A DNA stretch of 64,000 bases from Barnesiella viscericola DSM 18177. Lineage in GTDB: Bacteria; Bacteroidota; Bacteroidia; Bacteroidales; Barnesiellaceae. The notes beneath the pieces are model-generated. The model made no database searches and was not told where the DNA came from. It saw nothing but the letters and a program-made list of their open reading frames with translations. The translations under genes and the position numbers were made by a program. Positions 38,785-62,258 of this stretch are shown here, piece after piece. The stretch lies in assembly GCF_000512915.1 (NCBI RefSeq), contig NZ_CP007034.1, positions 1,736,001 through 1,800,000 of the forward strand, read 5' to 3'. Numbering within the stretch: position 1 is the stretch's first letter; each line of letters begins with the position of its first letter.

Positions 38785-39768
38785 TTACCGATTCGTATCT
38801 TTGGCAGCCTCATTACCCGCTGCGGCACTCCCTTCGCGGACCGCTTTGAGAGCCATCTCGGCTTCGAGTTGAGCCCTCGACTTACTGGTCGTCACCACAT
38901 AGACACCCAGGAATACCAGCAGAATGGCAAAGCCTTTCACTAAATCGAAGCTATCCATGCCCCACCATACGGCCAGCAACGAAGCGACGATAGGCTGAAT
39001 GTAGTTGTACATGCTCACTACCGTGGGGCGCAACCGTTTCTGACCGACCGAGACCAGCATATACGACAGGAAGGTGGCACCGAATATCACGAAGAAGAGG
39101 TCGAGATAAACCGTGGCATCGAGCGTAGCAAACGGAATGCTCATGATGCCTGAACTACCGAAAGGCAGGCAGCAAACCGTTGCAAACAGAAACATCCACT
39201 TCATGAGCGTTACCGGTTTGTAGCGGTTGATCAGGTCCTTGAATGCCACATAGTAGATGGCGAAACTTATCTCGGCAATCAGACAGAACAGGTCGCCCAT
39301 GACCCGTCCGCCCGACAAGCCTCCCGTCATACCTTCGGCCCCGTCCAGAATCAGCATCAACGCCCCCGAAAGACCCATGAAGACACCGATTATCTTCTTG
39401 CCCGTCATCGGCTCCTTCTGGATAAAGGCGGCCAATATCATGGTAATGATAGGCGTGAGCGAGGCGACTACCGAGGCATCGATAGGAGTCGTGTAGGAGA
39501 GCCCCACCACAAAAAATCCCTGGTTGAGCGTGATGCCGAACAGGGAAGCCGCAAACAGTAAAAGCAAATCGCGCCGGGTTACCTTCTCACGAGGCATAAA
39601 CAGCGAGGCAATCCAAAAGAAGACGGCAGCCCCTATCATACGCATGTTGGTTAACGAAAAAGCCGATATGACACCGGTAAAAAAGATTGATTTAGAAATA
39701 GGCGACATGATTCCCCACAGGAAATTTGCCGTAAACATGGCCGAGTGGCCCTTTAACTTCTCTTTCAT
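38785..39768 (-). CDS. EamA/DMT family transporter
   Basis: A 327-residue inner-membrane protein with about ten membrane segments in two EamA repeats (residues 8-142, starting FTANFLWGIMSPISK; and 158-295). The family exports metabolites such as amino acids. A charged tail of about 30 residues rich in Ala and Glu follows. The gene stands alone between a shared terminator and its own promoter. Confidence 0.9.
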   Translation of the reverse strand: MKEKLKGHSAMFTANFLWGIMSPISKSIFFTGVISAFSLTNMRMIGAAVFFWIASLFMPREKVTRRDLLLLFAASLFGITLNQGFFVVGLSYTTPIDASVVASLTPIITMILAAFIQKEPMTGKKIIGVFMGLSGALMLILDGAEGMTGGLSGGRVMGDLFCLIAEISFAIYYVAFKDLINRYKPVTLMKWMFLFATVCCLPFGSSGIMSIPFATLDATVYLDLFFVIFGATFLSYMLVSVGQKRLRPTVVSMYNYIQPIVASLLAVWWGMDSFDLVKGFAILLVFLGVYVVTTSKSRAQLEAEMALKAVREGSAAAGNEAAKDTNR

Positions 39769-40943: not shown

Positions 40944-43118
40944 TTAATGCCCTATTTTCTTCTCGTATTTTTTCAGCAGCTCCCGCGAGGTATCGAGTAA
41001 CGTACCGTGGCGCTCGATTATCACAGGATCCGTACTCTCCACCCACGCCTGTTCAAAGGCGGCGAGTTTTTGATTCAACGCCTGGCTGTCAAGTTCGGCA
41101 CCCTGCTCGGCCGCAGCGATTACCGCATCGAAATAGATTTCCCAGCGACCGGCATAGTACGATTTCACCAATCCGGCCCATGTGCGGCTTGCATAGTCGT
41201 TCAAGTTGCCGCCCCAGGTGGTAATGAGGTTGCGGGCGTTCTTCTCGTAATAATTTTTCAAGGCATCGGTCGTGCCCATGTTGCGAGCCTCATCAATCCA
41301 CGTATCGAGCGAAGCGTGGCTATGGAAAGCGTTCAAGGCCTCCAAATCGACCAGAATCTCACGCATCTCGGCAGCCTTGGCCTGCAAGGCCGGGACATTC
41401 CGCTCGCCGTACAAGCGGTCAAACTCCTGCTTTACCATCAGGAAATAGTTTCCCAAGAGCTGCCGCCCCACCATCACGAGGTCGATATTGTAGGCATCTC
41501 GCTGGCAGGCCGGCACATCGAGCAAGAGTTTCCAGACCTGCAACAAGATGGTATTGTCATATTCGTTACTGGTGCGCTTGTCGTGATTGTTGCCCAGCTG
41601 CGGGCGGAAGCCCGGCAAAATGCCCAACGTGCGGGGCACCTGTACGAAAATATCGTCGTACAAGAGGTGCCAGGCTTTACGTGCCGGAGCCGAGACAGCC
41701 CCCACGTGACGGTCGGCCAACCGGTCGATCCACTCCTGCTCGTCCACCGCTATGTTCCAAGCCTTCTCAAAGATATACTCATAGGGGAACTGGTCGATGT
41801 CCAGCCCTTCCAACGTAGAGCCTATCCCCGCCAGGTTGTCACCCCCGCTCTTCAAAGCCTCGTCGAGACGACGGCCACTCTCCCTTACATTGCCGGTGAG
41901 GGTCGTATTCCCGCCGAAATTGCCCAGATAGCACCAGATATAGGGCTGCCCGTGAAACTTGTCGGTACTCTTCCACAACTCCACATTCTCACAGTGATAG
42001 TCGAGCAGCATCATCTTGTCCTGCGGTACCCCGGTCAGCAATGCCTTGATGCGCGGAGCCGTCCACAAATCGCGGTCGTGATAGAACATCCAGGTCATTT
42101 GCAACCACACGGCCTCGGGGTCGGCAGCAGTCAGCGTCTTGTACATGTCGGCCGATACCTGAGCCAGATACTTCGGATCCCAACTGGGCGGATCCACCTC
42201 ATTGAAGGGGTCCACGCCATAGATGTGGTCGGTACCGAACAACTTTTCCTGCTCTTGGAGGAAACTCTTCTGAATCTCGGCAAACAACGGCTCCTCAGGA
42301 TTCAAGAAGTGGCAACGGTAGGTATCGGAAAATCCGGCCCACTTGCCCAAATACTGGATATTGGCCTCGGGATAGATGCGCTTCAAGGCAGCCGGCACAT
42401 GACCGGCAAAGGCCGGCAACACGGGAGTCATGTTCAACTCGCGCTCCCGGGCCAGAATCTTCTGCTGCAACTCGGTCTGCGACTCCAACCACTCCATGGG
42501 CAGAGGTCCATTCCACCCGTCGATATTGGCCATGCGGTGCCAGGGCAGGTAGACAGGCCCGGTAAAATAGGAGCGTATCTCCTCATCGGTCAGCCCCATC
42601 TTGCGCCACACCTTGTACCATACCGATTCCTGTCCGGTGATGGCCAAGGGCATGTTCACGCCGTTCAAGGCCATCCAGTCAATCATGCGCTCCCAGTCGC
42701 GCCATTGCCAGAAAGGCATGGAATAGCCGTAGGTACAGTAGTTCAGGAAGAAACGGGTATCGACCTTGGCCTCTACGGTGACTGGCTTGTCGACAGCAGG
42801 CAGAACCTGCGGCATCTCGACCGGAATATCGGCATACCACGACACGGTCGTGAGGCAATAGTATTTCAAGTAGTAGTTAAGTCCGGCTGCCATCGAATTG
42901 GCGTTATTTCCGCGGACAACGATTTTCCCGTCCCGACTTTCGAGCGTATAATAATCCCCGGCCTTGGCCGAAGCCTTCTCAAATACGAATCCATCGGCAT
43001 AATCGGGAATCAAGCGACGGGTAAGCCGTTCGGCCGCCTTCACATCGCTATCTTGCGAAAAGCAGAAGGCCGTTCCCAAAAACCAAAAGGACAACGCAAT
43101 AATAAACAGTTTCTTCAT
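40944..43118 (-). CDS. GH89 alpha-N-acetylglucosaminidase (first copy, after DUF5009)
   Basis: A 724-residue exported glycosidase that removes terminal alpha-linked GlcNAc, the reaction of lysosomal NAGLU. It has a signal peptide (MKKLFIIALSFWFLGTAFCFS), a small N-terminal domain (to about 110), a TIM barrel and a helical C-terminal domain. Barrel landmarks are WQWRDWERMIDWMALNGVNMPLA, the acid/base Glu in GVDPFNEVDPPS, and the likely nucleophile Glu in GSTLEGLDIDQFPYEYIFEKAWN. The start at 43118 follows the DUF5009 stop by 10 bases; an upstream in-frame start at 43205 would run into that gene. It is the last gene of the block. Confidence 0.93.
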   Translation of the reverse strand: MKKLFIIALSFWFLGTAFCFSQDSDVKAAERLTRRLIPDYADGFVFEKASAKAGDYYTLESRDGKIVVRGNNANSMAAGLNYYLKYYCLTTVSWYADIPVEMPQVLPAVDKPVTVEAKVDTRFFLNYCTYGYSMPFWQWRDWERMIDWMALNGVNMPLAITGQESVWYKVWRKMGLTDEEIRSYFTGPVYLPWHRMANIDGWNGPLPMEWLESQTELQQKILARERELNMTPVLPAFAGHVPAALKRIYPEANIQYLGKWAGFSDTYRCHFLNPEEPLFAEIQKSFLQEQEKLFGTDHIYGVDPFNEVDPPSWDPKYLAQVSADMYKTLTAADPEAVWLQMTWMFYHDRDLWTAPRIKALLTGVPQDKMMLLDYHCENVELWKSTDKFHGQPYIWCYLGNFGGNTTLTGNVRESGRRLDEALKSGGDNLAGIGSTLEGLDIDQFPYEYIFEKAWNIAVDEQEWIDRLADRHVGAVSAPARKAWHLLYDDIFVQVPRTLGILPGFRPQLGNNHDKRTSNEYDNTILLQVWKLLLDVPACQRDAYNIDLVMVGRQLLGNYFLMVKQEFDRLYGERNVPALQAKAAEMREILVDLEALNAFHSHASLDTWIDEARNMGTTDALKNYYEKNARNLITTWGGNLNDYASRTWAGLVKSYYAGRWEIYFDAVIAAAEQGAELDSQALNQKLAAFEQAWVESTDPVIIERHGTLLDTSRELLKKYEKKIGH

Positions 43119-43128
43119 CTTCTTATTC

Positions 43129-44223
43129 TTACAATTTGATATAGATATGCTTTTTATACAAGAACCAGGCGACAAGCCAGTTGAGCAGAAGGAATGCCAG
43201 CGCATAGGCCAGACTCCCGCCGTAATTCCCGAAGAGGGGTTGCCACAGGCTGTCGAACGAGAGCGTGGTCCAATGCCACTTGCGGAACGCCTCCCCGACG
43301 ATTTCGCTGAATATGTAGATGGACAAGGGATTCACCCCCACCACGACAAAGGGAAGCGTCCACCGGCTCTTTTTCAACTCATCGATAAAATAGACGAGCA
43401 TAGCCAAGATGAGCGAGGTAGCCCCGCAAGTCACCAACACGAAGCTCGACGTCCACAACCGCTTGTTCAACGGCGCGCCATAGCTCCACAGATAACCGAG
43501 TATGAGCATCACCGTGCCCCAAACGGCCAGTTTCACAATCTGCGTGCGAATCTCCTTTTCCCCGACGATAATGCGGCCGCACAGGAAACCGATCATCACC
43601 TGAGCCACCGCGGGGATTGTACTCAGCACCCCTTCGGGGTCGACAAACTGAGCGCCACCCAAATACATGTGCGACGGACCCAGCACGGCAAAATCGACAA
43701 TCGACACCACATTCTCGGCACACTTTTCAAAGCCGTTGCCAAAGAGTTGAAGCAAATAGTACCCCACCAGCAACACGACGATTATCGCCGGGAAGAACCG
43801 ATGCCGCACCGTGACCGACAGAAGTGCAACGATGCCGTAGCAGATACCCAGTCGCTGCAAGACGCCCATGATGCGCAGATTCTCGAGCGTATTGCATTCG
43901 CCCGTCGCAATCCAGGCCAAGACCCATTTGAGGGCTATGCCCGACAGGATTATCAGGAAAGTGCGCCGCAGAATGCGTCCGATCGAAACCCGCCAGTCAA
44001 ACCCGCTCTTATTAAGCGACAGAAAAATCGACACTCCCATGATGAACAGGAAGGCCGGGAAAACGAGGTCGGCAGGCGTAAAGCCGTCCCACCGCGCATG
44101 TTTCAACGGGGCGTAGGCATACCCGCAAGCCCCGGCGTTGTTGACGAGAATCATGCCATAAATGGTAATTCCCCGCAACACATCGAGCGAAACCAGTCTT
44201 TTCGTAGTTTTTTTCAACGACAT
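43129..44223 (-). CDS. DUF5009 membrane protein related to heparan-alpha-glucosaminide N-acetyltransferase
   Basis: A 364-residue inner-membrane protein with about ten segments. Its N-terminus (RLVSLDVLRGITIYGMILVNN, then LKHARWDGFTPADLVFPAFLFIMG) follows the pattern of human HGSNAT, including the KHxxWxG motif that holds the catalytic His (here His42). HGSNAT passes an acetyl group from cytosolic acetyl-CoA across the membrane onto terminal alpha-glucosamine. The start at 44223 overlaps the permease stop by 10 bases, and the GH89 gene begins 10 bases after its stop, so the three are coupled. Acetyl transfer to GlcN here is inferred, not shown. Confidence 0.85.
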   Translation of the reverse strand: MSLKKTTKRLVSLDVLRGITIYGMILVNNAGACGYAYAPLKHARWDGFTPADLVFPAFLFIMGVSIFLSLNKSGFDWRVSIGRILRRTFLIILSGIALKWVLAWIATGECNTLENLRIMGVLQRLGICYGIVALLSVTVRHRFFPAIIVVLLVGYYLLQLFGNGFEKCAENVVSIVDFAVLGPSHMYLGGAQFVDPEGVLSTIPAVAQVMIGFLCGRIIVGEKEIRTQIVKLAVWGTVMLILGYLWSYGAPLNKRLWTSSFVLVTCGATSLILAMLVYFIDELKKSRWTLPFVVVGVNPLSIYIFSEIVGEAFRKWHWTTLSFDSLWQPLFGNYGGSLAYALAFLLLNWLVAWFLYKKHIYIKL

Positions 44224-45467
44224 ATCCAATACATTAACGTGGAACACAAGGTTAATACAGCCCCGATGAGGCTTTCATAAGGAATCAATTTCATCCGCTC
44301 CTTGAAGGAGAGCTCACACACCCCGCCCGTGGCGTGGAAGAAAGAGCCGTGGGGCAGATGGTCGAGCACGGTAGAGCCGGCATTGACCATGGCCGCACCC
44401 CATACCGACGAAACGCCTACCGCCAGAATCGTGTCGGCAAATGAGGCCGACGCCAGCGTGGCTCCCGCCGTCGTGGAGGCCGTAGCGGCCGACATCAAGA
44501 TACCCGAGACGGGGGCTATCAACTCTTTCCCGACACTGATGTGGTCGAGCAGCACCAATATGTGGTCTTTGAGGGTAGAATCCTGAATGACCCCGGCAAT
44601 CGTACCCGTACCGATGAGCAGCACGGCGATTACCGACATCTTCTGCAACCCGAATTCGATACTGGGCAGGGCGTTTTTCCATTGCTTCATGCAGAGGAGT
44701 CCGCACAGACCGCCCACTGGTAAAGCAATCAACGGGTCGACGGTAATTCCGCACAACGGTCGCAAGGCCAGCAGGAGAATGGTCACGACGGGGGCAACCA
44801 GACTGCTCCACAACGGGGGTAACGTCCGGTCATCGGCCACGGTCTCGCAGTCGGAATGGACTCGACGTTCGGGTACCGGGAAGAAGCGGGCTATGACAAA
44901 GACGGTAAAGAGCAACCCGATGAGGGCCGGGACGACATTGGCAAACATGACCGACGACAGATCGGCCCCGAAATTCTCGGCCGCGATAATTGTGTTGGGG
45001 TTGGGCGAGATAATGTTGCCGCACTTTCCGCCCCCAATCATCACCAGCAGCAACTGCGGAGTGGGGACTCCCAGCCGGCGACCTATCGAGAGGGCTACCG
45101 GGGCTACCGTAATGACCGCCACATCGATAAACACCCCTACCGCACACAAGAGCATCGTGGCGAAGGCCAGTGCCAGATAGACGCGCTTCTCGCCCCAGAA
45201 CCGAATGATGGCATTCGAGATGGTCATGGCGGCACCGGTCTTGATCAACACCCCCGACAGCACCCCGGCTGTCAAGATGCGCAACACGGCCGAAGAGACT
45301 CCTTTCACCCCCTCGGTCATCGAGGCTACCACCTCTTCCAGCGAGAGGCCTCCGGCCAAGCCGCCGATCAAAGCACCCAGAATGAGGCTATATGCAGGCG
45401 ATACCTTTTTGATAATCAATCCTATCGCCACCAACAGACCCAACAATGCACCTACCGTACTATCCAT
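44214..45467 (-). CDS. GntP-type organic acid permease
   Basis: A 417-residue inner-membrane transporter of the gluconate/glycerate H+ symporter family, with about twelve segments. It has GALIGGLAGGLSLEEVVASMTEGVKGVSS near the N-terminus and GGGKCGNIISPNPNTIIAAENFGADLSSVM in the middle, both typical of the family. Its start overlaps the glycerate kinase stop by 8 bases, so glycerate or a related sugar acid is the likely substrate. Confidence 0.88.
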   Translation of the reverse strand: MDSTVGALLGLLVAIGLIIKKVSPAYSLILGALIGGLAGGLSLEEVVASMTEGVKGVSSAVLRILTAGVLSGVLIKTGAAMTISNAIIRFWGEKRVYLALAFATMLLCAVGVFIDVAVITVAPVALSIGRRLGVPTPQLLLVMIGGGKCGNIISPNPNTIIAAENFGADLSSVMFANVVPALIGLLFTVFVIARFFPVPERRVHSDCETVADDRTLPPLWSSLVAPVVTILLLALRPLCGITVDPLIALPVGGLCGLLCMKQWKNALPSIEFGLQKMSVIAVLLIGTGTIAGVIQDSTLKDHILVLLDHISVGKELIAPVSGILMSAATASTTAGATLASASFADTILAVGVSSVWGAAMVNAGSTVLDHLPHGSFFHATGGVCELSFKERMKLIPYESLIGAVLTLCSTLMYWICR

Positions 45468-46605
45468 GGTTTACGATTTGAAGGGTCCGCATTATCTGTG
45501 AAACGACCTGCCGGATATTCTGCAAGGCAAACGCACGGTCCATCGCCTGCTGCAACGAGACCGGCGCCGGCTGTATGGAAAAGACACCGGCAAAGCCCAT
45601 CTGATTCAATACCTCGCAATCCTCTACGCAACCGCCCAGAGCGATGACCGGGACCTGCTCGCGCTTCGCATGGCGCAGAACACCTCCCAAGGCTTTCCCC
45701 ATACCCGTCTGCCGGTCCAGTTTACCTTCGCCGGTCAGAATCAAGTCGGCACCCCGTATAATCTCGTCGAAGCGGAGCATCTCCAACACAATGTCGATGC
45801 CCGAGTGCAACTCGGCCCGAAGGAAGGGCAGCATGCCTCCACCCAATCCGCCGGCAGCCCCAGCACCCGGAATGGTCGAAATATCGATGTGCTTCGACGA
45901 CTCTATCACGCGGGCATAATGGACCATGCCCTTCTCCAACAAGGCCACGTCGTCGGGCGAAGCGCCCTTTTGAGGGGCATAAATCGCAGCTGCACCGCGA
46001 GGGCCGTAGAAGGGATTGTTCACATCGCAGGCAATCGTAAAGGTAGTCTCGCTCAAGGCTTCGTTGGCCCCACTTTCGTCGATGCGGGCTATGCGCTCCA
46101 AGTTCTTTCCCGCCGGGAAGAGCTCCTCGCCCTGGTCATCGAGAAACCGATAGCCCAGTGCGGCCAACAGTCCCGTACCCGCATCGTTGGTGGCGCTGCC
46201 GCCAATCCCCATGACGATGCGACGACACCCGCGGCTCAACGCATCGGCAATCATCTCGCCGGTACCCCAGGTGGTCGTGAGCAGGGGATTCCGCTTTTCG
46301 GGCGGTACCAGCGGCAATCCACTGGCCGCCGCCATCTCCATCACGGCAGTCGTACCGTCGGCCGTGATGCCATAGGTAGCCTCTATCGGGCACATGAGCG
46401 GGTCGTGAACCCGGCACGACACCCGCTCGACGGGCAGGCTGGCACAAATCGCCTCGGCCGTACCTTCGCCGCCATCGGCCACCGGTACCGTCACCACCTC
46501 GCACCCGGCCAGGCAATCGGTAATCCCCTGTCGGGCAGCGGCGGCTATCTCTTGCGAACTTGCACAACCCTTGAATGAATCAAATGCTAAAATTATCCTT
46601 TTCAT
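45460..46605 (-). CDS. Glycerate kinase (type 1, GarK/GlxK family)
   Basis: A 381-residue cytoplasmic kinase that phosphorylates glycerate to phosphoglycerate and feeds glycolysis. It starts MKRIILAFDSFKGCASSQEIA, with GGEGTAEA near 60, GIGGSATNDAGTGLLAALGY near 135 and a C-terminal ILTGEGKLDRQTGMGKALGGV, all characteristic. The start at 46605 has GGAGG upstream and a -7 box in front; the longer frame from 46698 enters the GH89 gene. It is directly coupled to the permease gene. Confidence 0.93.
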   Translation of the reverse strand: MKRIILAFDSFKGCASSQEIAAAARQGITDCLAGCEVVTVPVADGGEGTAEAICASLPVERVSCRVHDPLMCPIEATYGITADGTTAVMEMAAASGLPLVPPEKRNPLLTTTWGTGEMIADALSRGCRRIVMGIGGSATNDAGTGLLAALGYRFLDDQGEELFPAGKNLERIARIDESGANEALSETTFTIACDVNNPFYGPRGAAAIYAPQKGASPDDVALLEKGMVHYARVIESSKHIDISTIPGAGAAGGLGGGMLPFLRAELHSGIDIVLEMLRFDEIIRGADLILTGEGKLDRQTGMGKALGGVLRHAKREQVPVIALGGCVEDCEVLNQMGFAGVFSIQPAPVSLQQAMDRAFALQNIRQVVSQIMRTLQIVNHG

Positions 46606-46642: not shown

Positions 46643-48811
46643 TTACTCCTCTTTACACCGGACCACCCATTCGATGGCGCTCTGCAACGGGTCGTCAAAA
46701 GCGGTAGAGGTATTGTGCCACGGAGTCTTTATCCAGTTCTCCTCCCAGCGATCCAGGTCGGCCCGCTGTTCCGAGAAATACAATTTCATGCGGGGAATAT
46801 AGTAATCCTTTATCAGTCCGCTCCAAAAACGGGCGGCATAATCTTCCTGAAATCCGCCCCAAGTGGTAATGAGCCGCTTGGCGTTGGCCTCATAGGCGTC
46901 TTTCTCCCGGTCGGTCTCACCCCATTCGCGAGCCCGGTCAACCCACTCGTCCAGTCGGTAGAGCGGGTGCGAAGCCAGCAGTTTGTCGACGGTCAAAAGA
47001 ATCTCGACCGAGCGGTTCAACTGTTGCGCAGCCTCCACCTGGTTTCCCAACGAGTCGGCATGCAACGCCTGCCGGTAATGGTCGTCGGCCTTGACGGCCA
47101 GATAGTAGGAGGCATATTCGAGGGCATCGTTTACATAGAGCGGCGACGATTTCAAGCTGTCGGCACACGACAGGAACTGCTCCACCCCTTGCAGGAAGTT
47201 CTCATTCATATCGTGCCTGCTCATCCGGCGGGTATCGGGCACAACCGTCTGCCAGGTAAACCGGGGATAGGAATAGAGCGAACTGTAAACCGATTCCCGG
47301 AACCGGTGCCAAGCGCTGTCCATGGCTGCCGGACAACTCCCGTAACGAGCCCGGCAATAATCGGGCAACCAGGTATCCAGATCAATCGAATCGGCAGTCC
47401 AGCCCATATCGGCGAGCAGTTCATAGACCACCTCGTTGTTTTCAAGACCCTCGGGAGCCGACCCGAATCCAATCAGGTTCCCGGCTTTCCCGCTGTGCAG
47501 GGCTTCGGCCGACGAGGTAGCATACATCTGCAAATCGCCGGTCATCGGGGTCTTTCCCCCGAAGTTGGGCACATAGCTGAAAATCCACTTCTTCCCATAA
47601 AAGCCGTCGTGATTCTTCCATGTCTGCTCGGTACCCCAAACCCACTTGGGATAATCGTTCCCCAGGTCTATGATAATCATCTTGTCGTCGGGAACCCGGC
47701 TCAACAGAGCCTGCAAACTGGAACGGTCCCAAAAGTCGTGCTGATACCCGAAGGTCCAGCCCTGTGTCACCCACACGGCATCGGGGTTACCGGCCGCAAT
47801 CGAGCGATATATCGATTCGCCGTACTGGGCCAACAGCCGGTGCTTCCCGGCTTCGTCACCCTCGGCGACAGGCAATCTCATCTCATTGAAACTATCCGAC
47901 AGATAGTAGGTGTTCTTGCCGAACTCCTTTTCCCACTCCTCGACAAACATCTTTCCTATCTCGTTGAAATAAGGCGTATCGGGAGGTAATACATAGGCAT
48001 TGTACTTTTCATCAAATCCACCCCACTCCAAGTGCTTGAACGCAATCTCGGGGTGTTGCTCGGCAAAAGCCATCGGGACAAACCCGGCAAACGCGGGAGC
48101 TACGGGCTCCATGCCTAACTCGCGCATGCGTTTCAATATCTTGTGTTGCAGTTTTATCTGGGCCTCCTGCCACCCCTCCGACAGCGGTCCGTCCCAGCTG
48201 TTGAGGTTACCCATGCGATGCCAGGGCAGATGGGCCGGCCCGGTGAAAAAGGTTCGTATATCCTCTTCCTTCAACCCCATCTTCAACCACACGCGTTCGG
48301 CTATCGCCTCGCTGGCCACGGTAGCCAACGGCATGTTCACGCCCCGCAGCGCCATCCAGTCAATCTCCTTCTCCCAGCGGTCCCAATCCCAATAGGGAGC
48401 GGTGTATCCAAACGTACACACGTTCAGAAAATAACGGAACTGATAGGGGGTGGTCTGTCGCTTCAAGGCATAGTCGGGCCAAACGGCCGGCAAGGTCATG
48501 TGCTCCCCACTCCACGTCTTCATCGACTGGCAAGCCTCACGCAGGTAGGTGTGGAAGGCATAACAGAGGGCAACCGTGCTGCTGCCTCTCAGGGTGAGAA
48601 CTCCTTGCCGAGCCTCGATCTCGAAGGTCTCTTTTCCGTTTTCGGGGGCGATAACCTCCAACTTTATCTCTGAGGCCCGCTCGCCGATTTGTCGCTCGAG
48701 CAGCTCAAAAGCGGGCTGTATCACCGCATTCGATTGGCCCGACGAGCTACACCCGCACAGGCATAAAATCAGGAAAAGAAGGTAAAAACAAGGAGATGTG
48801 AAGCGTTTCAT
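46643..48811 (-). CDS. GH89 alpha-N-acetylglucosaminidase lipoprotein (second copy)
   Basis: A 722-residue paralogue of the GH89 at 40944. The signal peptide ends in LCGC (Cys21), so it is a lipoprotein and may sit on the cell surface. The barrel shows WDWDRWEKEIDWMALRGVNMPLA, an acid/base Glu in LSDSFNEMRLPV and a nucleophile region SAPEGLENNEVVYELLADMGW, which is closer to the human NAGLU pattern than in the other copy. A terminator separates it from the beta-helix gene upstream. Confidence 0.93.
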   Translation of the reverse strand: MKRFTSPCFYLLFLILCLCGCSSSGQSNAVIQPAFELLERQIGERASEIKLEVIAPENGKETFEIEARQGVLTLRGSSTVALCYAFHTYLREACQSMKTWSGEHMTLPAVWPDYALKRQTTPYQFRYFLNVCTFGYTAPYWDWDRWEKEIDWMALRGVNMPLATVASEAIAERVWLKMGLKEEDIRTFFTGPAHLPWHRMGNLNSWDGPLSEGWQEAQIKLQHKILKRMRELGMEPVAPAFAGFVPMAFAEQHPEIAFKHLEWGGFDEKYNAYVLPPDTPYFNEIGKMFVEEWEKEFGKNTYYLSDSFNEMRLPVAEGDEAGKHRLLAQYGESIYRSIAAGNPDAVWVTQGWTFGYQHDFWDRSSLQALLSRVPDDKMIIIDLGNDYPKWVWGTEQTWKNHDGFYGKKWIFSYVPNFGGKTPMTGDLQMYATSSAEALHSGKAGNLIGFGSAPEGLENNEVVYELLADMGWTADSIDLDTWLPDYCRARYGSCPAAMDSAWHRFRESVYSSLYSYPRFTWQTVVPDTRRMSRHDMNENFLQGVEQFLSCADSLKSSPLYVNDALEYASYYLAVKADDHYRQALHADSLGNQVEAAQQLNRSVEILLTVDKLLASHPLYRLDEWVDRAREWGETDREKDAYEANAKRLITTWGGFQEDYAARFWSGLIKDYYIPRMKLYFSEQRADLDRWEENWIKTPWHNTSTAFDDPLQSAIEWVVRCKEE

Positions 48812-48952: not shown

Positions 48953-50536
48953 TTATCTAACAATCAGTTTTTGGGTCAAGTGATCTACGACAATCAGGTA
49001 GATGCCTTGGGCTACGGGCAATTCGAGGGCTGCACCGTCGGCGATAACCCCTTCGTAAACCAGACTACCGGTCAGGTTGTAAACCCGGGCTTCGGCCTCA
49101 CCGTCCAAACCGGCGGCATAGACTACCCGACCGTCGTTCCAGATGCGGAGTTCATTGCCAACCACGGCACTCTCGATACCACTTATCTCGGCGGCATATT
49201 CAACGGCACCTACTGCGGGAGCCTCGGGACGCGGATTGCCCAGCTGGTCGGTCGTGGGGATTTCAATCCCTTCGTAACTCTTCAAACCCTTGCCGATAAC
49301 AACACTGTTCTCGGCAATCATGGCTACGTGCAAGTCGCCCATCAAGGTGGCTGTCATGTGCGAATATTCGGGATCGTTCTCGTCCCACGGGTTCTGTTCG
49401 GTAGCAGCGAAAACGGCATCGCTCGAAAAATCGATCAGTGCATTGTCGTCGGCTGCATCGAGAACCTGATAGAATTTATCGTTGGCAGCGGCAAAATAGT
49501 TGTTTTTGCAAACCGGGAATACCGTTTGAGGTTGTGCCACATCGCCGGCCTTGTCGCCTTCGAGGTAGAAAGCCTTCACGTCGTTCAACGGGTTTGTATA
49601 CCAGGGATCGTAGTAGTTCTCGGCAAAGAGGTTGTTGATCAATACGGGTTTCATCGGTTCGGCCGTAGCACGAGCCCATACGTTGATGGCACCGCCGTCG
49701 TCGCTGTTGGTGATGTTGTTGAGGTTACCCACGAAGGTACAGTTGACTACTACCGGTTCAAAAGAACCCGTAGTTTCGGCCGTCTGCATGTAAAGGGCGC
49801 CGCCCCGGTTGCCGCAGGTATTGTTGGCAAAGGTAGAGTTGGCAATATACACGCTGGGAACCACTCCTTTTTTGAGGACGTTCACACCAACGGCACCACC
49901 CGATACGGCTTCGTTATACTCAAACGTACAGTTGGTAATGCGCAACGCAGGTGCCATGGTCGACTCGGCAGTGTAGAAGCAGAGGGCGCCGCCACCGTAA
50001 CTACCCATACCCTTGTTGTTGTAGAACCAGCATTGGTCGAAGGTGGCGTTACAGTTGTTGATACGGGCTACGCCACCGTTGTTTCCACTCTCGTTCTTGG
50101 GGTCGCGATTATCGCGGAAGACGCATTTCGTAGCCGAGAAGGAGCAGTCGCCCGACATCTTGATGGCAATGGCGCTGAACCCTTTGACCACGAGATTTTC
50201 CATCGATACATTCGAGCCTCCCGACAGGTTCAGGAAGTAGTTGGAACCACCCACAATAGTCACGGGTTTGCCGTTTTTCTTGTTGAGACCGTCGATTTTG
50301 ACATTCTTCTTGTCCAAATCGATTCCCTTGCAATCTTCCGTATTGTATTCCAGCGTTTCGCCATCGAAATTAAACTCGACCGTCGTTTCCGTTTCGCCGG
50401 AAATGGCCGACATAACTTGCAGCAGAGAACCCTCTGTGGCTGCGTTCATTTCGGCAGTAGTCACCTGTACGGTCTCTGCCAACAGTGTGCCTGAGCAAAG
50501 TGCCAATAGGCACAACAATGATGTACTCTTTTTCAT
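48953..50536 (-). CDS. Secreted right-handed beta-helix protein with C-terminal sorting-like domain
   Basis: A 527-residue exported protein. A signal peptide (MKKSTSLLCLLALCSGTLLA) is followed by parallel beta-helix repeats (about residues 65-330) with Asn-rich turns such as NCTFEYNEAVSGGAVGV and NSTFANNTCGNRGGALYM, a pattern seen in polymorphic outer membrane proteins and polysaccharide-binding folds. The last 70 residues (VYNLTGSLVYEG, GIYLIVVDHLTQKLIVR) look like a type 9 secretion sorting domain. No catalytic motif is evident. It follows an EEP gene by 12 bases. Confidence 0.75.
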   Translation of the reverse strand: MKKSTSLLCLLALCSGTLLAETVQVTTAEMNAATEGSLLQVMSAISGETETTVEFNFDGETLEYNTEDCKGIDLDKKNVKIDGLNKKNGKPVTIVGGSNYFLNLSGGSNVSMENLVVKGFSAIAIKMSGDCSFSATKCVFRDNRDPKNESGNNGGVARINNCNATFDQCWFYNNKGMGSYGGGALCFYTAESTMAPALRITNCTFEYNEAVSGGAVGVNVLKKGVVPSVYIANSTFANNTCGNRGGALYMQTAETTGSFEPVVVNCTFVGNLNNITNSDDGGAINVWARATAEPMKPVLINNLFAENYYDPWYTNPLNDVKAFYLEGDKAGDVAQPQTVFPVCKNNYFAAANDKFYQVLDAADDNALIDFSSDAVFAATEQNPWDENDPEYSHMTATLMGDLHVAMIAENSVVIGKGLKSYEGIEIPTTDQLGNPRPEAPAVGAVEYAAEISGIESAVVGNELRIWNDGRVVYAAGLDGEAEARVYNLTGSLVYEGVIADGAALELPVAQGIYLIVVDHLTQKLIVR

Positions 50537-50548
50537 AATTTTAAAAAT

Positions 50549-51574
50549 TTAATGGTTAAGAATGTATTTGAAAGTGCTATTTTGATAGCCGTTTTTCACT
50601 TGTACGAGATAGAGCCCGTTGCGGCACGAGGCTGGGAAACAGACCTCGTCTCCGTTGTCGACCCGTTGCGAGCCGACCAACGTGCCGTCCAACGCATAGA
50701 GATCGACTGTCGACTCGGCTTGAAGAGAGGTCAGCGAGAATCCTCCGGAGGTTCTTAGCAGCTGCATCTCGCGGGTTGCGGTCGCATGGTCTACTCCACT
50801 CCCCTCGACCGGATCGATTACCACATAGACCGGCAGGTGGTCCGACACGTCGGAGAGGGTAAGCCCGTCGACCGAGGTGACTACCCCCGTCTCGGCTACC
50901 TCATACTCCTGTCCCAGTTCGCTGCAATAGGAGATAATCATGTCGATGCACGACGTAGGTCCGTCGGCCGGGAAGGTGTAGGCCGAGGTGTTGTTCAGTA
51001 TCGAGAAGCCGTTGTTCTTGAAGGTGACCATGGCCCGATAGGTGGGCTGGGCATTGAAATCGCCGGCGATGAAGACCGTCTTGTCGCTCTTCCGGGCAAA
51101 ATTGATGACCCAGGCCGTCGCGGTATCCCGGTCGTCGGCATTGAGCGAATAGTGGGTACTGATGAAATAGAAATCCTCAAACTCGGCAATGAGAAATCCG
51201 CGGGCCTCCTTGTCTTTCGAGGTATCCGACGGGTCGAACGACTGGGTCTGCACCGACAGGGGTTCGGTCTTCGACAGCAGCCCTACTCCATAATAGGAGC
51301 CGACCAGCGCAAAGAACGACGAGTGCATGCCAGTAGCCTCGGCCAGTTCTCTCAGATAGTTGTGCTTGATACCTATGAAAGTGCGGTTATCCACCTCCTG
51401 CAAAGCCACGATATCGGGCGTTTGGGCATTGATGACGGCAGCGATATCTTCCAACCGCGAATCGGTCATACTGTGCCCCTTGATGTTGTAGGTGAGCAAC
51501 TTCACCGGTTCGGCCGCAACCAGGCTTCCTACCACGGCCACCCACAAAACGATTATGGTAAATACTCTTTTCAT
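50549..51574 (-). CDS. Secreted EEP-fold phosphodiesterase with C-terminal sorting-like domain
   Basis: A 341-residue exported protein. The signal peptide (MKRVFTIIVLWVAVVGSLVAA) is followed by an endonuclease/exonuclease/phosphatase domain with a full active site: LLTYNIKG, ALQEVD, THYSLNA, GDFNAQP and SDHLPV. Such enzymes cleave phosphodiester or phosphomonoester bonds in nucleic acids, phospholipids or inositol phosphates. The last 75 residues (TVDLYALDGTLVGSQ, NGLYLVQVKNG) resemble a sorting domain like that of the next gene. The start at 51574 gives the signal peptide; a longer frame from 51667 enters the GH127 gene. Confidence 0.85.
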   Translation of the reverse strand: MKRVFTIIVLWVAVVGSLVAAEPVKLLTYNIKGHSMTDSRLEDIAAVINAQTPDIVALQEVDNRTFIGIKHNYLRELAEATGMHSSFFALVGSYYGVGLLSKTEPLSVQTQSFDPSDTSKDKEARGFLIAEFEDFYFISTHYSLNADDRDTATAWVINFARKSDKTVFIAGDFNAQPTYRAMVTFKNNGFSILNNTSAYTFPADGPTSCIDMIISYCSELGQEYEVAETGVVTSVDGLTLSDVSDHLPVYVVIDPVEGSGVDHATATREMQLLRTSGGFSLTSLQAESTVDLYALDGTLVGSQRVDNGDEVCFPASCRNGLYLVQVKNGYQNSTFKYILNH

Positions 51575-51605: not shown

Positions 51606-53615
51606 TTATTCGGCCGCCTGTACCTCGGGCGGAACTTCGCCCACACGCCCAAAGGGGAACATGGCAATCCTCAACGTGGTGCAGCCGTACGGTTCGAGCC
51701 GGAGCAGCTGCGGAGTGGCGTTGTTCAAAGCAAATATCATGATGCCTCTGGCCGGTAGACCCGGTGTGACGGGGGCAAAGATTTCGCTTCCCGACGAGTG
51801 TGCTATCTTGCGGTATTCGAGTTGCCAACCGGCCAGCTCGTAACCCGGGAAGACTACGGTAAGCGGCGACGGCGACAGGGTCCACGGATTCTCGTCCGCA
51901 CCGATGTTCCGCTCGATGAGCTTATATCCCTTGTCCTGTTCGTCGGCAACGCCCAGAGCAAAGTTCCATTTCGAGGCCGGAGTCATCGTGTAGCCCTTGT
52001 AGCTGAACGACTGTATGGCGGGGGTGAGCACATCGGTCTGTACCGTATGGCTCTCGACCGGCAGCGCCATCAACAGCGGTCCGCACGTGACCACCATGGC
52101 TTCGTGGTCCCACCGCTGCAACCGCACCTGCTTCGGGAAGAGCAACTCGATGCGGTCGCCCGTCTTCCAGAGTCGGTGAATATCGAAATATCCGTCATGC
52201 GCGGCACGCGTAACCTTCTGGTTGTTGACATACACCTCGGCCCGGTCGCACCAGCCGGGGATTCGCAAGTGGAGCGACATCTCGGCCTCTCCCTCGACCA
52301 CCGAGAGGAGAACCTTGTCACCAAACGGATAGGCCGACTCTTCACGCACGGTTATCGACCCCTCGCGCGAGGTCAGCGTTGCTTCGCCCGGACCATAGAG
52401 CATCTTGTAATACTCGCCCTCGCCGTGCATCCACTGTGCCCCGGCATAGATGGGCAACAGGCGGTTCAGATTGCCCGTGCAGCACGACGGCCGATGTACC
52501 TGCCGATAGGCAAAACGGCTGTTGTCATAGGCTCCCGTGTGGTTGGAATACTCGGTACACACCACTTGATTGGGAGCCGAGTAGTATTGATGGGCATCGA
52601 AATTCTTGGTGATACCGCCCAGACCGGCGTTGAACAGGGCACACTCGATGCGGTCGGCAAACTGTGTGTCGCCGGTGGCCCGCAACATGTAGGAGCAGGT
52701 CCACATGTAATCGACCACGTTGCACATCTCGTGCACGCTCCGGGCCGTCCGCCCCGAGAGACCCTCTTCTCCGCTGGCCACCCCGTCGGGGAGCATGTGA
52801 TAGCGGTCGAGCTTGGCAAAGGCCGCCCGGGCCAGATCGAGGTATCTGCGGTCGCCGGTGAGGTCGTAGAAGAGAACCGGCAGTTTGAGGAACTCGTGGA
52901 AGGTCACGGCGTGAATCTCGGTGCGCTCATCGGCGGCAAACCGTTCCATCGCCTGCCTCAATGTATACTCGCCGAAGCAAGGCTCGTCGAGCATCGAGAG
53001 CGCCTTTGTCTTGAAGAAGTCATCGCCGGTCTCCCGATAGAGCCAGTCGAGCACCTCGATGTTGCAGAGGCTGCGGGCCGTATATCGCACCGTATCGTTG
53101 CGGAAGTGGCGTTCGAGTGCCTCGACGACCGCCTGGTTGCGTGTCACCTCATACTCGGCCATCATCGCTCTGAAAAAGACCGCCTGTACCCAGCGGCTCA
53201 TCTCCTTCGACACGACGCGGGGCCCCAGCAATCCGTCGTCGCCGGCCCGGTCGATGGTACCGTAAACGGCCCGGCGAGCCTTGTCGAGCAAGGGGGCCGA
53301 ATCGAGCAGATAGCCCAGACGTATCATACCGTCGTAATAATAGGCCGTCTGTTCATAAGGAACCCAAAACTCCTCGGTAACTCCGTTTTTCACCCGCAGG
53401 AAGGGCTGTGCCCCCCACCCCCCTTGTGTAAAGGGGAAGGCGGTCTTGTCGAGAATCCCGGTAAAGTTCCGCTCCTGAGCCTGCATCAGGTCGGCCAGCC
53501 AACCTTGCGGAGTGAGGCGATCGAGAGGTTCGGTCGACAACATTCGGCCGGCTTCCGCCGACAGAGGCAGCAGGGAGATGATGAAACACCATATGGCTAA
53601 TCGGGTTGTTCTCAT
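51606..53615 (-). CDS. GH127-type glycoside hydrolase (DUF1680, beta-L-arabinofuranosidase-like)
   Basis: A 669-residue exported enzyme. The signal peptide (MRTTRLAIWCFIISLLPLSAEA) precedes an (alpha/alpha)6-barrel and a C-terminal beta-sandwich. The Cys/Glu zinc cluster of GH127 is present: E296 and C298 in HEMCN, and C378-C379 in PSCCTGN, where the first Cys of the pair is the nucleophile in the Bifidobacterium enzyme HypBA1. The family removes beta-L-arabinofuranose, but related families act on other sugars. The start at 53615 is chosen for the signal peptide. Confidence 0.88.
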   Translation of the reverse strand: MRTTRLAIWCFIISLLPLSAEAGRMLSTEPLDRLTPQGWLADLMQAQERNFTGILDKTAFPFTQGGWGAQPFLRVKNGVTEEFWVPYEQTAYYYDGMIRLGYLLDSAPLLDKARRAVYGTIDRAGDDGLLGPRVVSKEMSRWVQAVFFRAMMAEYEVTRNQAVVEALERHFRNDTVRYTARSLCNIEVLDWLYRETGDDFFKTKALSMLDEPCFGEYTLRQAMERFAADERTEIHAVTFHEFLKLPVLFYDLTGDRRYLDLARAAFAKLDRYHMLPDGVASGEEGLSGRTARSVHEMCNVVDYMWTCSYMLRATGDTQFADRIECALFNAGLGGITKNFDAHQYYSAPNQVVCTEYSNHTGAYDNSRFAYRQVHRPSCCTGNLNRLLPIYAGAQWMHGEGEYYKMLYGPGEATLTSREGSITVREESAYPFGDKVLLSVVEGEAEMSLHLRIPGWCDRAEVYVNNQKVTRAAHDGYFDIHRLWKTGDRIELLFPKQVRLQRWDHEAMVVTCGPLLMALPVESHTVQTDVLTPAIQSFSYKGYTMTPASKWNFALGVADEQDKGYKLIERNIGADENPWTLSPSPLTVVFPGYELAGWQLEYRKIAHSSGSEIFAPVTPGLPARGIMIFALNNATPQLLRLEPYGCTTLRIAMFPFGRVGEVPPEVQAAE

Positions 53616-53649: not shown

Positions 53650-54429
53650 TTATTTCACGAAAATCAAGTCGGAGACGATGGGCAGGTGGTCGGACAGCTG
53701 CGAATGCACGGTTTGTGTCTTGACAAGCGTCCACCCCTTCATGGGCCGGGCAAAGAGATAGTCGATTTTGATAATGGGGTTCCAGGCCGGGAAGGTAAAG
53801 TCGTTGTTCGTAGCCGGGAACCAGCTCTTCGACATGATATTGACAATGGCATTGGAGTAGTGACGGGCATTGAAATCACCGCCGATAATCACCGGATAGG
53901 GGGCATTTTCAAAGCGGTCGCAGATGAATTGGGCCTGCATGTTGCGCAGGCTCTCGCTGTTCACCTCCAAGTGGGTAGTCACGAAGGTAAGGGTATCGTC
54001 GCCCATCTCAATCAGAGCTTCGAGCAAGGCCCGTTGTTCCTTTTTCTCGGGATTGGGCAGCAGCACCTTTTCGGTCTTGATGTAGGGATATTTCGACAGC
54101 ATGCCTATACCGTAGTATCCGCCACCATACTCGATGGTCTTGCCATAGAGGCCGAACATACCGGTGCGGTAGGCCAGTTCGCCGATGAAATCTTTTCCTT
54201 TCTGATGCGGAGCCCGCTTGCGGTCGGTGTGGACATCGACCTCTTCCAGAGCCACGAAATCGGGCTTGAACGATTTGATGTGATAGGCGAGATCTTCGAG
54301 CGACGACAGTTCGCCGAAGCGCAGATTATAGGTCATTACTCTCACCCGCAGGGTGTCTTGCTGAGCCGAAACAACCCCGCAAGAGAGGGCTATGAAAAGC
54401 AGAATTACTAATTTACGAAATGTGTTCAT
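53650..54429 (-). CDS. Secreted EEP-fold phosphodiesterase (second of three)
   Basis: A 259-residue exported protein with signal peptide MNTFRKLVILLFIALSCGVVSA. The EEP core is complete: MTYNLRFG, ALEEVDVHTDR, THLEVNSES, GGDFNARH and SDHLPIV. There is no lipobox and no C-terminal extension, so it is probably soluble in the periplasm. It lies 13 bases after the lipoprotein paralogue and 34 before GH127. Confidence 0.88.
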   Translation of the reverse strand: MNTFRKLVILLFIALSCGVVSAQQDTLRVRVMTYNLRFGELSSLEDLAYHIKSFKPDFVALEEVDVHTDRKRAPHQKGKDFIGELAYRTGMFGLYGKTIEYGGGYYGIGMLSKYPYIKTEKVLLPNPEKKEQRALLEALIEMGDDTLTFVTTHLEVNSESLRNMQAQFICDRFENAPYPVIIGGDFNARHYSNAIVNIMSKSWFPATNNDFTFPAWNPIIKIDYLFARPMKGWTLVKTQTVHSQLSDHLPIVSDLIFVK

Positions 54430-54442
54430 ACGATAATTGTGA

Positions 54443-55297
54443 TTAGGGTTTTATTTCCAAAACCGAGATAATGGGCAGGTGATCCGAAGCATTCACACCG
54501 GTAATGACCGTGTGAGAAACGACCCGAAACCTGTCGTTGGGATAATAGGTGATATAGTCTAACTCCCGATTGGGATTGTTCGACGGAATGGTAAATTTCG
54601 TCGGATCGGTGTTCGTGCGGGTAAACCCGGCAGCATCGAGAATGGCAATCGTCGAGTTGGAAGGTGTAGCGTTGAAGTCACCGCCCAGGACAACGGGCCG
54701 CTTGATCGGCTCGAAGATATTTTCGAGAGCATAAGTGATTTGCAAGTCGCGCTCGCTCTGTATCGTAGAGAGGTGTGTCACGGCAAATGTAATGTCGGTA
54801 CCGCCGATGTTGATGATGGCCGTGCCCACGGCGTTGTCGCTGGTCATGACCTGCCCCTCGATTTCATCGGGAAAAAGGTAGGTCTTGGTCTCCTTAAACG
54901 GTTTCTTCGAGAGCATGGCCAGGCCATATTCGCCGCTGCGATAATCCATAATCCGGAAGAAATGGTAATAGGGATACTTGGCCCGCGCGGCTATCTCCTT
55001 GGCCTGGTCTACCCCCAGGCTGCGGGTCGTGCAGCTGTCGATCTCTTGAAGCAGAACAACGTCGGGCATCTTCGACTTGATGACATTGGCTATGCCGTCG
55101 ACATCGGGAACGGTCTCTTCGCCGCTCACCCCATAATAAGGAGCGCAATGCCGGGTGTTATACGACATCACCGTCACCCGCTCGTTACCCACCGTTACAC
55201 CGGTCCCCCCGGGAACAGCGGGTTCGCCGCTGTTCTCCTTGGAGCAACTCGGTAACAGGAGTAGTAAATAAAACAATATGAATAAACTACGATACAT
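54443..55297 (-). CDS. EEP-fold phosphodiesterase lipoprotein (first of three)
   Basis: A 284-residue protein with a lipobox (LLPSC, Cys18), so it is membrane-anchored and possibly surface-exposed. The EEP active site is complete: MSYNTRHC, LLQEIDSCTTRS, THLSTIQSE, GGDFNATPSN and SDHLPII. It lies 26 bases after SusD. The in-frame extension to 55393 lies inside susD, so 55297 is the start. Substrate unknown. Confidence 0.88.
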   Translation of the reverse strand: MYRSLFILFYLLLLLPSCSKENSGEPAVPGGTGVTVGNERVTVMSYNTRHCAPYYGVSGEETVPDVDGIANVIKSKMPDVVLLQEIDSCTTRSLGVDQAKEIAARAKYPYYHFFRIMDYRSGEYGLAMLSKKPFKETKTYLFPDEIEGQVMTSDNAVGTAIINIGGTDITFAVTHLSTIQSERDLQITYALENIFEPIKRPVVLGGDFNATPSNSTIAILDAAGFTRTNTDPTKFTIPSNNPNRELDYITYYPNDRFRVVSHTVITGVNASDHLPIISVLEIKP

Positions 55298-60514: not shown

Positions 60515-61456
60515 TTATTTCTCTTTCACTGCATAAACATTCTCCGATATTTCATTAATTTTTATGGGGGTAATGGCGGTCATCATTTCGAGGATACCTG
60601 ACAGGTTGTTGAGCTTGCAGGTGAAATTATAGGTGAAGGTATTTATCTGCTTGTCCCGCACGTCGAAGGTGACATCGAATTGTCGCGACAGCGTGGTCAA
60701 GACCTCGTTCAAGGGCGCATTTCTAAATACCAGTTTATTATCTTTCCAGTCCGAAGCCTCCTGGTAATACTCGTTTCGCATCACCTTACAGACTTTGCTT
60801 CCTTTCTCATAGACTGCCGTCTGGCCGGGTTCCATCTGATACGATCCCATCTTCTCGGCATAGGGATAGCTAATCACGATACCGCCCTCGTTGAGCGTCG
60901 TGGTCACCACCGAGTCGGTGGGATAGACCGAGACGTTGAACTGGGTTCCCGTCACCCGGATATTCATCTCGTCGGCCTGCACCATGAAGGGTTTCGACGC
61001 GTCTTTCTTCACCTCGAAGTAGGCTTCGCCCACCAAGGTCACCTCGCGTTTGTTGCGGGCAAACTTTTCGGGATAGACCAGTTTCGAGTCGGCATTCAGC
61101 CACACTCTCGTACCATCTTCGAGCAGAACGACCAGCCGTTCGCCCCGCAAGGCACAAATTTCCTTGTACTCGGGCTTGGAGAAATCAAAACTTTGGTAAG
61201 CCAAATACCCCACATTCAACAGAACCAAAGCAATGGCACAAGCCCACTTGCAAATAGTTCCTATGCTGCGTCGTTCGCTCCGTCGAATACCCTCCGACAA
61301 ATTTTCATAGACTCCGAACTTGTCGAAATCGGGGACTTCACGACCTCCCATCGGCAAGGATTCGGCATTCATCAGCCGCTCTATATCCTTGTCGATGTGA
61401 TTCGAGATATAATTCAATATCTCGCTATCGGTTTGATGTCGTTTCCAAAGACGCAT
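60515..61456 (-). CDS. FecR family anti-sigma factor
   Basis: A 313-residue inner-membrane regulator. A cytoplasmic part (residues 1-66) would hold the ECF sigma factor, one membrane segment spans about 68-87 (ICKWACAIALVLLNVGYLAY), and the periplasmic FecR domain follows (LLEDGTRVWLNADSKLVYPEKF, VTLVGEAYFEVKKDASKPFMVQ). The C-terminal part (LNEVLTTLSRQFDVTFDV) is a DUF4974-like domain that meets the SusC STN domain. It lies between sigma and susC, 36 bases before the latter. Confidence 0.94.
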   Translation of the reverse strand: MRLWKRHQTDSEILNYISNHIDKDIERLMNAESLPMGGREVPDFDKFGVYENLSEGIRRSERRSIGTICKWACAIALVLLNVGYLAYQSFDFSKPEYKEICALRGERLVVLLEDGTRVWLNADSKLVYPEKFARNKREVTLVGEAYFEVKKDASKPFMVQADEMNIRVTGTQFNVSVYPTDSVVTTTLNEGGIVISYPYAEKMGSYQMEPGQTAVYEKGSKVCKVMRNEYYQEASDWKDNKLVFRNAPLNEVLTTLSRQFDVTFDVRDKQINTFTYNFTCKLNNLSGILEMMTAITPIKINEISENVYAVKEK

Positions 61457-62254: not shown

Positions 62255-62258
62255 CAAG

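Follow-up and report, generated by a model that had tools for sequence, protein, structure and literature searches.

In the human lysosome, HGSNAT and NAGLU, a member of glycoside hydrolase (GH) family 89, act as an acetylate-then-cleave pair. Bacterial HGSNAT-like proteins are already known, as are GH89 enzymes in gut bacteria and NagX as a proposed acetylase. NagX of the Shewanella SO_3504 type is a proposed transmembrane acetylase of glucosamine (GlcN) that is often found in chitin utilisation operons, and from fitness data in five bacteria Price et al. proposed that it acetylates free GlcN (PMC9007349). For the neighbouring DUF5009 proteins, PMC12423673 states that experiments have confirmed no function. 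Among the matches listed from open-licence PMC full text, which leaves most subscription papers outside, there was no paper coupling an HGSNAT-like protein to GH89 in bacteria, and none on a utilisation locus for clostridial lipoteichoic acid (LTA), glycosylphosphatidylinositol (GPI) anchors or glycosyl inositol phosphorylceramides (GIPCs). Here we describe a stretch of 64,000 nucleotides from Barnesiella viscericola DSM 18177 (contig NZ_CP007034.1, positions 1,736,001 to 1,800,000; the whole stretch is called the window), in which a gene for an HGSNAT-like membrane protein and a GH89 gene (GH89a) close a glycan-uptake locus of about 14 genes, 40944-62095, with every gene on the minus strand. 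Tentatively, we read the pair as the terminal portion of a polysaccharide utilisation locus (PUL) for a phosphodiester-linked alpha-GlcN(Ac)/D-glycerate polymer, likeliest clostridial LTA of the PS-III type, in which terminal alpha-GlcN would be acetylated and then cleaved.

Family, fold and active site of the pair

The 364-aa HGSNAT-like protein scores above the cut-off of the Pfam model HGSNAT_cat (PF07786; 35.5 bits versus 22). The initial annotation had labelled it DUF5009 and related it to HGSNAT; the relation holds, whereas the label does not, the PF16401 score (21.1 bits) lying below the cut-off of 25. The cut-off of the NagX equivalog model NF046061 is not reached either (182.2 bits versus 480), although this model is the only NCBIfam match and covers nearly the whole length. 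Searching PDB sequences by phmmer returned human HGSNAT constructs only, with three distinct sequences at E up to 1 and a best E of 4e-29. In that alignment His42 (ATG numbering; codon 44100-44098), within LKHARWDG, is placed opposite HGSNAT H269, in agreement with the earlier claim of a KHxxWxG motif in an HGSNAT-like context. HGSNAT residues were mapped onto the window protein through the same alignment and are numbered as in PMC11357348, 28 below the full-length chain (H269 is 297 in full-length numbering). N258, H269 (His42), D279, R344, D469, E471 and E587 are identical in the two proteins. Six of seven luminal-entrance residues are identical, the exception being H586, which is replaced by Ser. 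Among the residues of the cytosolic side, R239, D244, R247 and R317 are unchanged, Ser stands in place of E363 and Arg in place of K491, and K634 lies outside the alignment. The alignment begins at human residue 264, and the luminal beta domain of HGSNAT is missing from the window protein.

An AlphaFold2 model built from five sequences (pLDDT 75, pTM 0.81) gave human HGSNAT as each of its first 15 PDB matches in Foldseek, at E values of 1e-13 to 7e-12 and TM-scores by query length of 0.74-0.79. The next matches were to the acyltransferase GWT1 (TM-score 0.63-0.64), followed by entries at E = 0.016 upward with TM-scores of about 0.2. The comparison with HGSNAT that had been suggested for this protein thus came out in favour of kinship, the predicted fold being that of HGSNAT with acetyl-CoA and luminal residues kept, and the window protein is probably an acetyltransferase rather than a transporter. 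Likeness to the human system extends from the PF07786 domain, predicted fold and seven kept residues to a GH89 partner with both catalytic glutamates. The differences are that human HGSNAT has 663 aa and a luminal beta domain, has His at position 586 and resides in the lysosome, whereas the window protein is shorter, has Ser at that position and is presumed to sit in the inner membrane facing the periplasm, with no heparan-degrading partners found. Likeness to NagX consists in the nearly whole-length NF046061 match, a similar size and the same histidine; the window protein is linked to GH89, EEP and glycerate genes, as opposed to chitin utilisation.

GH89a matches the NAGLU model PF05089 at E = 1.3e-142 (Pfam), and its nearest solved sequence is human NAGLU at E = 1.1e-140. 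In an alignment made for GH89a, it keeps the equivalents of NAGLU E316 and E446, which we take to be the two catalytic glutamates. A second enzyme of the locus, GH89b, shares with GH89a the domains PF05089, PF12971 and PF12972; it is the GH89 subtype that accompanies EEP enzymes, with counterparts of 60-69% identity in loci of five other genomes.

Gene content of the locus and a proposed substrate

The HGSNAT-like and GH89a genes had been described as a two-gene operon 10 bases apart. The distance is exact, 10 bases separating the stop of the former from the ATG of the latter on the minus strand, and the pair is real, but the unit extends over about 14 genes, 40944-62095, as follows (first-Met starts where stated):

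61544-62095, minus strand: ECF-type sigma factor (PF04542, PF08281), presumed first gene of the locus
60515-61456, minus strand: FecR-type anti-sigma factor (PF04773, PF16344)
57065-60478, minus strand: SusC-like TonB-dependent transporter with an N-terminal STN domain (PF07715, PF07660)
55324-57051, minus strand: SusD-like glycan-binding lipoprotein (PF07980, PF14322)
54443-55297, minus strand: EEP-family phosphoesterase 1, EEP1, from the first Met (PF03372; PF23226 below cut-off, 23.4 versus 27)
53650-54429, minus strand: EEP-family phosphoesterase 2, EEP2, PGAP2IP-like (PF03372; PF23226 at 32.3 bits, cut-off 27)
51606-53615, minus strand: GH127-like protein, from the first Met (PF20736, PF07944; NCBIfam aceric acid hydrolase far under its cut-off)
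50549-51574, minus strand: EEP-family phosphoesterase 3, EEP3, from the first Met (PF03372; no PF23226 match)
48953-50536, minus strand: beta-helix protein (weak PF13229 match, below cut-off)
46643-48811, minus strand: GH89b, second alpha-N-acetylglucosaminidase (Pfam), with a lipoprotein-like N terminus as judged by eye
45460-46605, minus strand: glycerate kinase from the first Met (PF02595, E = 1.8e-142); the listed open reading frame (ORF) starts at a TTG at 46698
44214-45467, minus strand: GntP-family permease (Pfam), presumably for D-glycerate uptake, overlapping both neighbours
43129-44223, minus strand: predicted HGSNAT/NagX-type membrane acyltransferase (PF07786), from the ATG at 44223, with an in-frame GTG at 44247 as an alternative start
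40944-43118, minus strand: GH89a, NAGLU-like alpha-N-acetylglucosaminidase with a signal-peptide-like N terminus, 10 bases past the HGSNAT-like gene

From the FecR gene to GH89a, neighbouring genes overlap or are separated by about 40 bases at most when first-Met starts are used, the exception being 141 bases before GH89b. SusC adjoins SusD in the company of glycan-active enzymes, which is the arrangement of a PUL. The glycerate kinase is the sole PF02595 match found in a search of the genome.

To our knowledge, GH89 enzymes do not act on alpha-GlcN. They cleave terminal alpha-linked N-acetylglucosamine (GlcNAc; PMC8225759), and N-acetylation of alpha-GlcN is proposed for this reason, as a step that would let GH89 act. 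A surface polymer with suitable residues has been described in Clostridioides difficile, whose LTA (PS-III) has the repeat [-6)-alpha-GlcNAc-(1-3)-[-P-6]-alpha-GlcNAc-(1-2)-D-glyceric acid] linked through 6-P-6 phosphodiesters; un-acetylated GlcN 'seem to be' 15% of the L residues, and antibodies to this LTA cross-react with other clostridia (PMC10642750, PMC6972965, PMC5270738). On our reading, residue L is the 1-3 linked one of the two GlcNAc. PS-III thus combines two alpha-GlcNAc, a GlcNAc-6-phosphodiester, D-glycerate and some alpha-GlcN, so the gene set of the locus, which encodes together families suited to a phosphodiester, to alpha-GlcNAc and to D-glycerate, fits LTA; the match was made from printed structures. 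Judged from this gene content, a clostridial LTA-type polymer is close to an even prospect as the substrate of the locus. We also lean slightly towards an alpha-GlcN glycoside, rather than free GlcN, as the acceptor of the HGSNAT-like protein.

For the phosphodiester, a known comparison is offered by bacterial GlcNAc-phosphodiesterases (GlcNAc-PDases), which cluster with PGAP2IP and cut phosphodiesters at C6 of GlcNAc, with mannose and galactose hardly or not accepted (PMC10704324). The EEPs of the locus share their fold and family, and EEP2 resembles the PGAP2IP domain near the GlcNAc-PDase cluster, so that we propose, from sequence, that they may be enzymes of this type. The difference is one of setting: the described enzymes remove phosphocholine or phosphoethanolamine (PE) from GlcNAc C6, whereas the Barnesiella EEPs are coupled to GH89, to which a relative is fused in one case.

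From the observed gene content, order and conservation, together with the predicted fold and the kept residues, the activities, acceptor and substrate can be proposed as follows. SusC/SusD would import fragments of the polymer, and the EEP enzymes would cut its GlcNAc-6-P-6-GlcNAc bridges. Acetyl-CoA would dock from the cytosolic side, in the pore that the helices of the HGSNAT-like protein enclose, and His42 would relay the acetyl group across the inner membrane to a periplasmic acceptor, the 2-amino group of terminal alpha-GlcN. The two GH89s would then remove the alpha-(1-3) linked GlcNAc and the GlcNAc linked alpha-(1-2) to glycerate, and the GntP permease and glycerate kinase would consume the D-glycerate set free.

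If this holds, bacterial relatives of HGSNAT gain a testable acceptor in terminal alpha-GlcN glycosides as opposed to free glucosamine. Were LTA the substrate, Bacteroidota would have a route to consume a clostridial cell-surface polymer, that of C. difficile included, and the locus would supply GlcNAc-6-phosphodiesterases and an alpha-GlcNAc-glycerate hydrolase as tool enzymes. A wider and more doubtful extension is that a gut commensal consumes clostridial teichoic acid by a chemistry whose lysosomal form is one late use, for heparan, of an older and general bacterial strategy for alpha-GlcN in teichoic acids, GPI anchors and plant sphingolipids.

Linkage to GH89 and related loci in other genomes

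An orthologue of the HGSNAT-like gene is present in seven of the nine Barnesiella genomes searched, its own included (82-100% identity), and GH89 flanks it on both sides in all seven; genomes G002 and G003 are the two that lack it. In a wider sample of the class (396 genomes of at least 90% completeness), GH89 occurs in 19 genomes (29 matches) and an HGSNAT-like match in 79, the number of HGSNAT-like genes being a lower bound as at most four candidates were scored per genome. An HGSNAT-like gene lies within 10 kb of GH89 in 11 of the 19 GH89-bearing genomes, that of the window included (12 of 29 genes), whereas copy number and genome size would predict 0.27 genomes. Among the loci nearest to GH89a in sequence (the best 80 of at least 587 confirmed, 21 of the 80 being shorter than 15 kb), the fetched flanks held a convincing HGSNAT-like gene in four: L100, which is Barnesiella, L118, L138 and L145. 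A fifth candidate, an 85-bit match in L157, was unconvincing and was rejected as a member of the family. The association anticipated by the initial annotation is therefore far above chance in the class sample and infrequent among the GH89 loci closest to the window.

On a tree of 99 HGSNAT-family members, drawn from chosen loci rather than a random sample (20 with GH89 within 8 kb, 15 with GH20, and 64 unlabelled and uncounted), the GH89 label requires five changes, at least four of them forced by well-supported branches. As the changes may be gains or losses, the tree shows GH89 linkage on separate branches, and not that origins were many. Three Barnesiella paralogues of the HGSNAT-like gene (L088, L089, L095) come after genes for a major facilitator superfamily (MFS) protein, NamZ and an FAD-linked oxidase/4Fe-4S protein; the neighbouring domains are those shown for L088, with genes of the same clusters at L089 and L095.

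EEP genes lie alongside GH89 in other loci as well, namely in two Hoylesella genomes (two EEPs and two GH89s each), G754, G161, G401 and G090. Counterparts of EEP2, GH89b and GH89a co-occur in the two Hoylesella genomes, and those of EEP2 and GH89b in G754. In G090, a genome of another family, one 952-aa protein is an EEP-GH89 fusion (L072:9415-12273, minus strand) whose parts are of the EEP2 type (56% identical) and the GH89b type (69% identical); it adjoins GntP and glycerate kinase, and both lie between two GH89s. The G754 locus holds, beside two GH89s and two EEPs, an ORF that starts as a partial glycerate kinase and ends as a partial GntP (L272:5753-6394, minus strand) and looks like a deletion remnant. 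Compared with the window, these four loci are alike at 46-60% for EEP2 and 62-69% for GH89b, and GH89a counterparts reach 60-64% in Hoylesella and G090 and 37% in G754. SusC/SusD are seen in the Hoylesella and G090 loci, and the glycerate genes are present in G090 and truncated in G754. They differ from the window in that the HGSNAT-like gene sits outside their EEP/GH89 loci: a family relative is found elsewhere in all four genomes, and each of the six genomes tested carries one. Of 393 Bacteroidales genomes, seven have GntP matches over 160 bits, one of these partial; 26 have any match at E 0.001, and those outside the seven score 63 bits or less. In five of the seven genomes with this GntP subtype the locus includes GH89, the exceptions being G702 and G158.

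A second type of locus was seen in other Bacteroidota. Twenty fetched regions cover 22 of the 29 class-sample GH89 genes (five genes were unfetched and two are in the window), and 11 of these regions hold an HGSNAT-like gene. Among these 11, GH92 is found in eight, myo-inositol oxygenase (MIOX) in five, GH28 in five, a metallophosphoesterase in three and GH35 in two; among the nine regions without an HGSNAT-like gene, GH92 is found in three and the other four in none. EEP is found in 0 of 11 class-sample GH89 loci with an HGSNAT-like gene, in three of nine without, and in 4 of the best 80 loci near GH89a. Sixty control loci with an HGSNAT-like gene and no listed GH89 nearby gave no GH92 and two MIOX. 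The latter come from G121 and G154, in which 31 and 22 kb separate GH89 from the HGSNAT-like gene; the profiles behind the counts derive from the first locus set, so that distant relatives of GH92 or of the other families may be missed in the controls. Full-length MIOX is present in 31 of the 396 genomes, in six of them no more than 10 kb from a listed HGSNAT-like gene, with a seventh at 10.1 kb. Loci L062, L063, L066, L067 and L068 (also L187/L078 and L193/L079) combine GH89, the HGSNAT-like gene, GH92 (unseen in L066), SusC/SusD and MIOX. Such loci share the HGSNAT-like/GH89 pair with the window, with SusC/SusD in 10 of the 11 GH89 loci that hold an HGSNAT-like gene. They differ by carrying an alpha-mannosidase and often myo-inositol oxygenase where Barnesiella has EEP and glycerate genes.

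Weighing the alternatives

Several observations weigh against LTA as the substrate and against the mechanism proposed for it. The small share of HGSNAT-like genes among the loci nearest to GH89a, 4 of the best 80, counts against the initial reading of the pair. Among the loci examined, Barnesiella is the one case in which EEP and HGSNAT-like genes occur together, and the EEP/GH89 loci of the two Hoylesella genomes, G090 and G754 are without the HGSNAT-like gene, which may therefore be an added part in Barnesiella. The proposal is weakened by this restriction and by the tree counting gains and losses together. Glycerate genes are also missing from the Hoylesella loci, and glycerate kinase stands beside a lone GH89 in L104 and L108, where EEP and GntP were not detected. 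The G754 locus holds a sulfatase with an SGSH_C domain. Only EEP2 of the three EEPs passes the PGAP2IP model cut-off (PF23226), and two of the window EEPs found no counterpart among PDB sequences at E 0.01. The fold matches of the EEP2 model (pLDDT 83) are nocturnin, CNOT6L, TDP2, uncharacterised bacterial EEPs and neutral sphingomyelinase, so that, as modelled, it resembles many EEP enzymes of unlike function and indicates no single substrate. The loop bearing His42 (residues 30-48) is modelled at pLDDT under 50, and the GH127-like and beta-helix proteins are accounted for neither by PS-III nor by any of the alternatives. Lastly, NagA (TIGR00221) has no match in the genome, which bears on the use of GlcNAc after its release. 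A protein that adjoins GH89 in another locus (L078:6808-8736, minus strand) combines glucosamine-6-phosphate isomerase-type and PIG-L (de-N-acetylase) domains, and proteins of this kind might serve in GlcNAc use.

A serious rival is the role of NagX itself, in which free glucosamine is N-acetylated in the periplasm for entry as GlcNAc and the GH89 neighbour reflects a shared amino-sugar theme. The gene order is compatible with it; NF046061 is the sole NCBIfam match, and for 15 of the 99 members of the chosen-locus tree the flanking 8 kb contain GH20 but not GH89. We nonetheless regard it as unlikely, with a score of 182 bits against a cut-off of 480, linkage to GH89 above chance, no source of free GlcN recognised among the annotated genes of the locus, and no NagA match in the genome, NagA being involved in four of the five bacteria of Price et al. 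(PMC9007349). The protein could instead be a sugar transporter that moves the GlcNAc released by GH89 over the inner membrane, in the manner of TfMurT, a putative transporter of N-acetylmuramic acid (MurNAc) and a distant relative of NagX (PMC9007349). On the tree, the branch of the window protein lies beside the Barnesiella paralogues that adjoin NamZ and an MFS protein. We presume that the MFS/NamZ/FAD-oxidase setting of those paralogues is what would be expected for a putative MurNAc transporter such as TfMurT. No other GlcNAc transporter was recognised in the locus, though an EamA-type gene lies just downstream. With the fold matching HGSNAT and then GWT1, transporter matches having E values of 0.016 or more and TM-scores near 0.2, and the catalytic His and the residues of the acetyl-CoA pore kept, transport is distinctly improbable.

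Other substrates are conceivable for an acetylating pair. Degradation of inositol glycans, with a GPI-anchor glycan or a plant or fungal GIPC supplying a natural un-acetylated alpha-GlcN, would suit the excess of GH92, MIOX, GH28 and metallophosphoesterase in GH89 loci with an HGSNAT-like gene over those without, the six of 31 MIOX genes within 10 kb of such a gene, and the resemblance of EEP2 to the PGAP2IP domain. The GPI core contains GlcNa1-6Ins (Man3-GlcN-inositol), and GIPC bears Hex, HexN or HexNAc on glucuronic acid (GlcA)-inositol (PMC11907402, PMC12498067). For the window, however, this is improbable: GH92, MIOX and GH28 were not detected in the locus, the genome has no MIOX match, the glycerate genes are left unexplained by an inositol glycan, and the GlcNAc-PDases described in PMC10704324 left PE on mannose. 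GPI and GIPC were dropped as first choice because of the glycerate genes present and the missing MIOX and GH92, and were retained for the loci of other families. Heparan sulfate degradation of the lysosomal kind involves the same two families as HGSNAT/NAGLU, and the GH89 enzyme BT3590 of B. thetaiotaomicron cleaves heparosan oligosaccharides (PMC8225759). The genome has no Hepar_II_III_C match (heparinase I was not searched for), and none of its 17 sulfatase matches falls within the window. In the sample, heparinase II/III and GH88 were found with GH89 in a single locus, the heparan-type locus of G345, and its 20 kb hold no HGSNAT-like gene. After the genome searches for heparinase II/III and sulfatases, heparan sulfate was judged unlikely as the substrate of the locus, and we consider the lysosome-like reading very improbable. 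Of the periplasmic conversion of alpha-GlcN to alpha-GlcNAc put forward in the initial annotation, the chemical step fits the fold, the kept residues and the linkage, whereas the lysosomal picture attached to it finds no support in locus or genome; acetylate-then-cleave acting on a substrate other than heparan is plausible.

The second type of locus, with GH92 and MIOX, bears on this last point. A mannosidase, MIOX, a phosphoesterase and acetylate-then-cleave chemistry would together fit GPI or GIPC, so the same pair may serve different alpha-GlcN substrates, and these are candidate GPI-anchor or GIPC utilisation loci. In the GH92/myo-inositol oxygenase arrangement, acetylation before cleavage may thus extend to GPI anchors or to GIPC of plants.

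At its two ends the window locus is bordered by genes on the same strand. The EamA-type transporter gene (38785-39768, minus strand) downstream of GH89a was left out of the locus, and a tRNA-Leu gene (62258-62342, minus strand) lies directly upstream of the sigma factor gene as a possible integration site.

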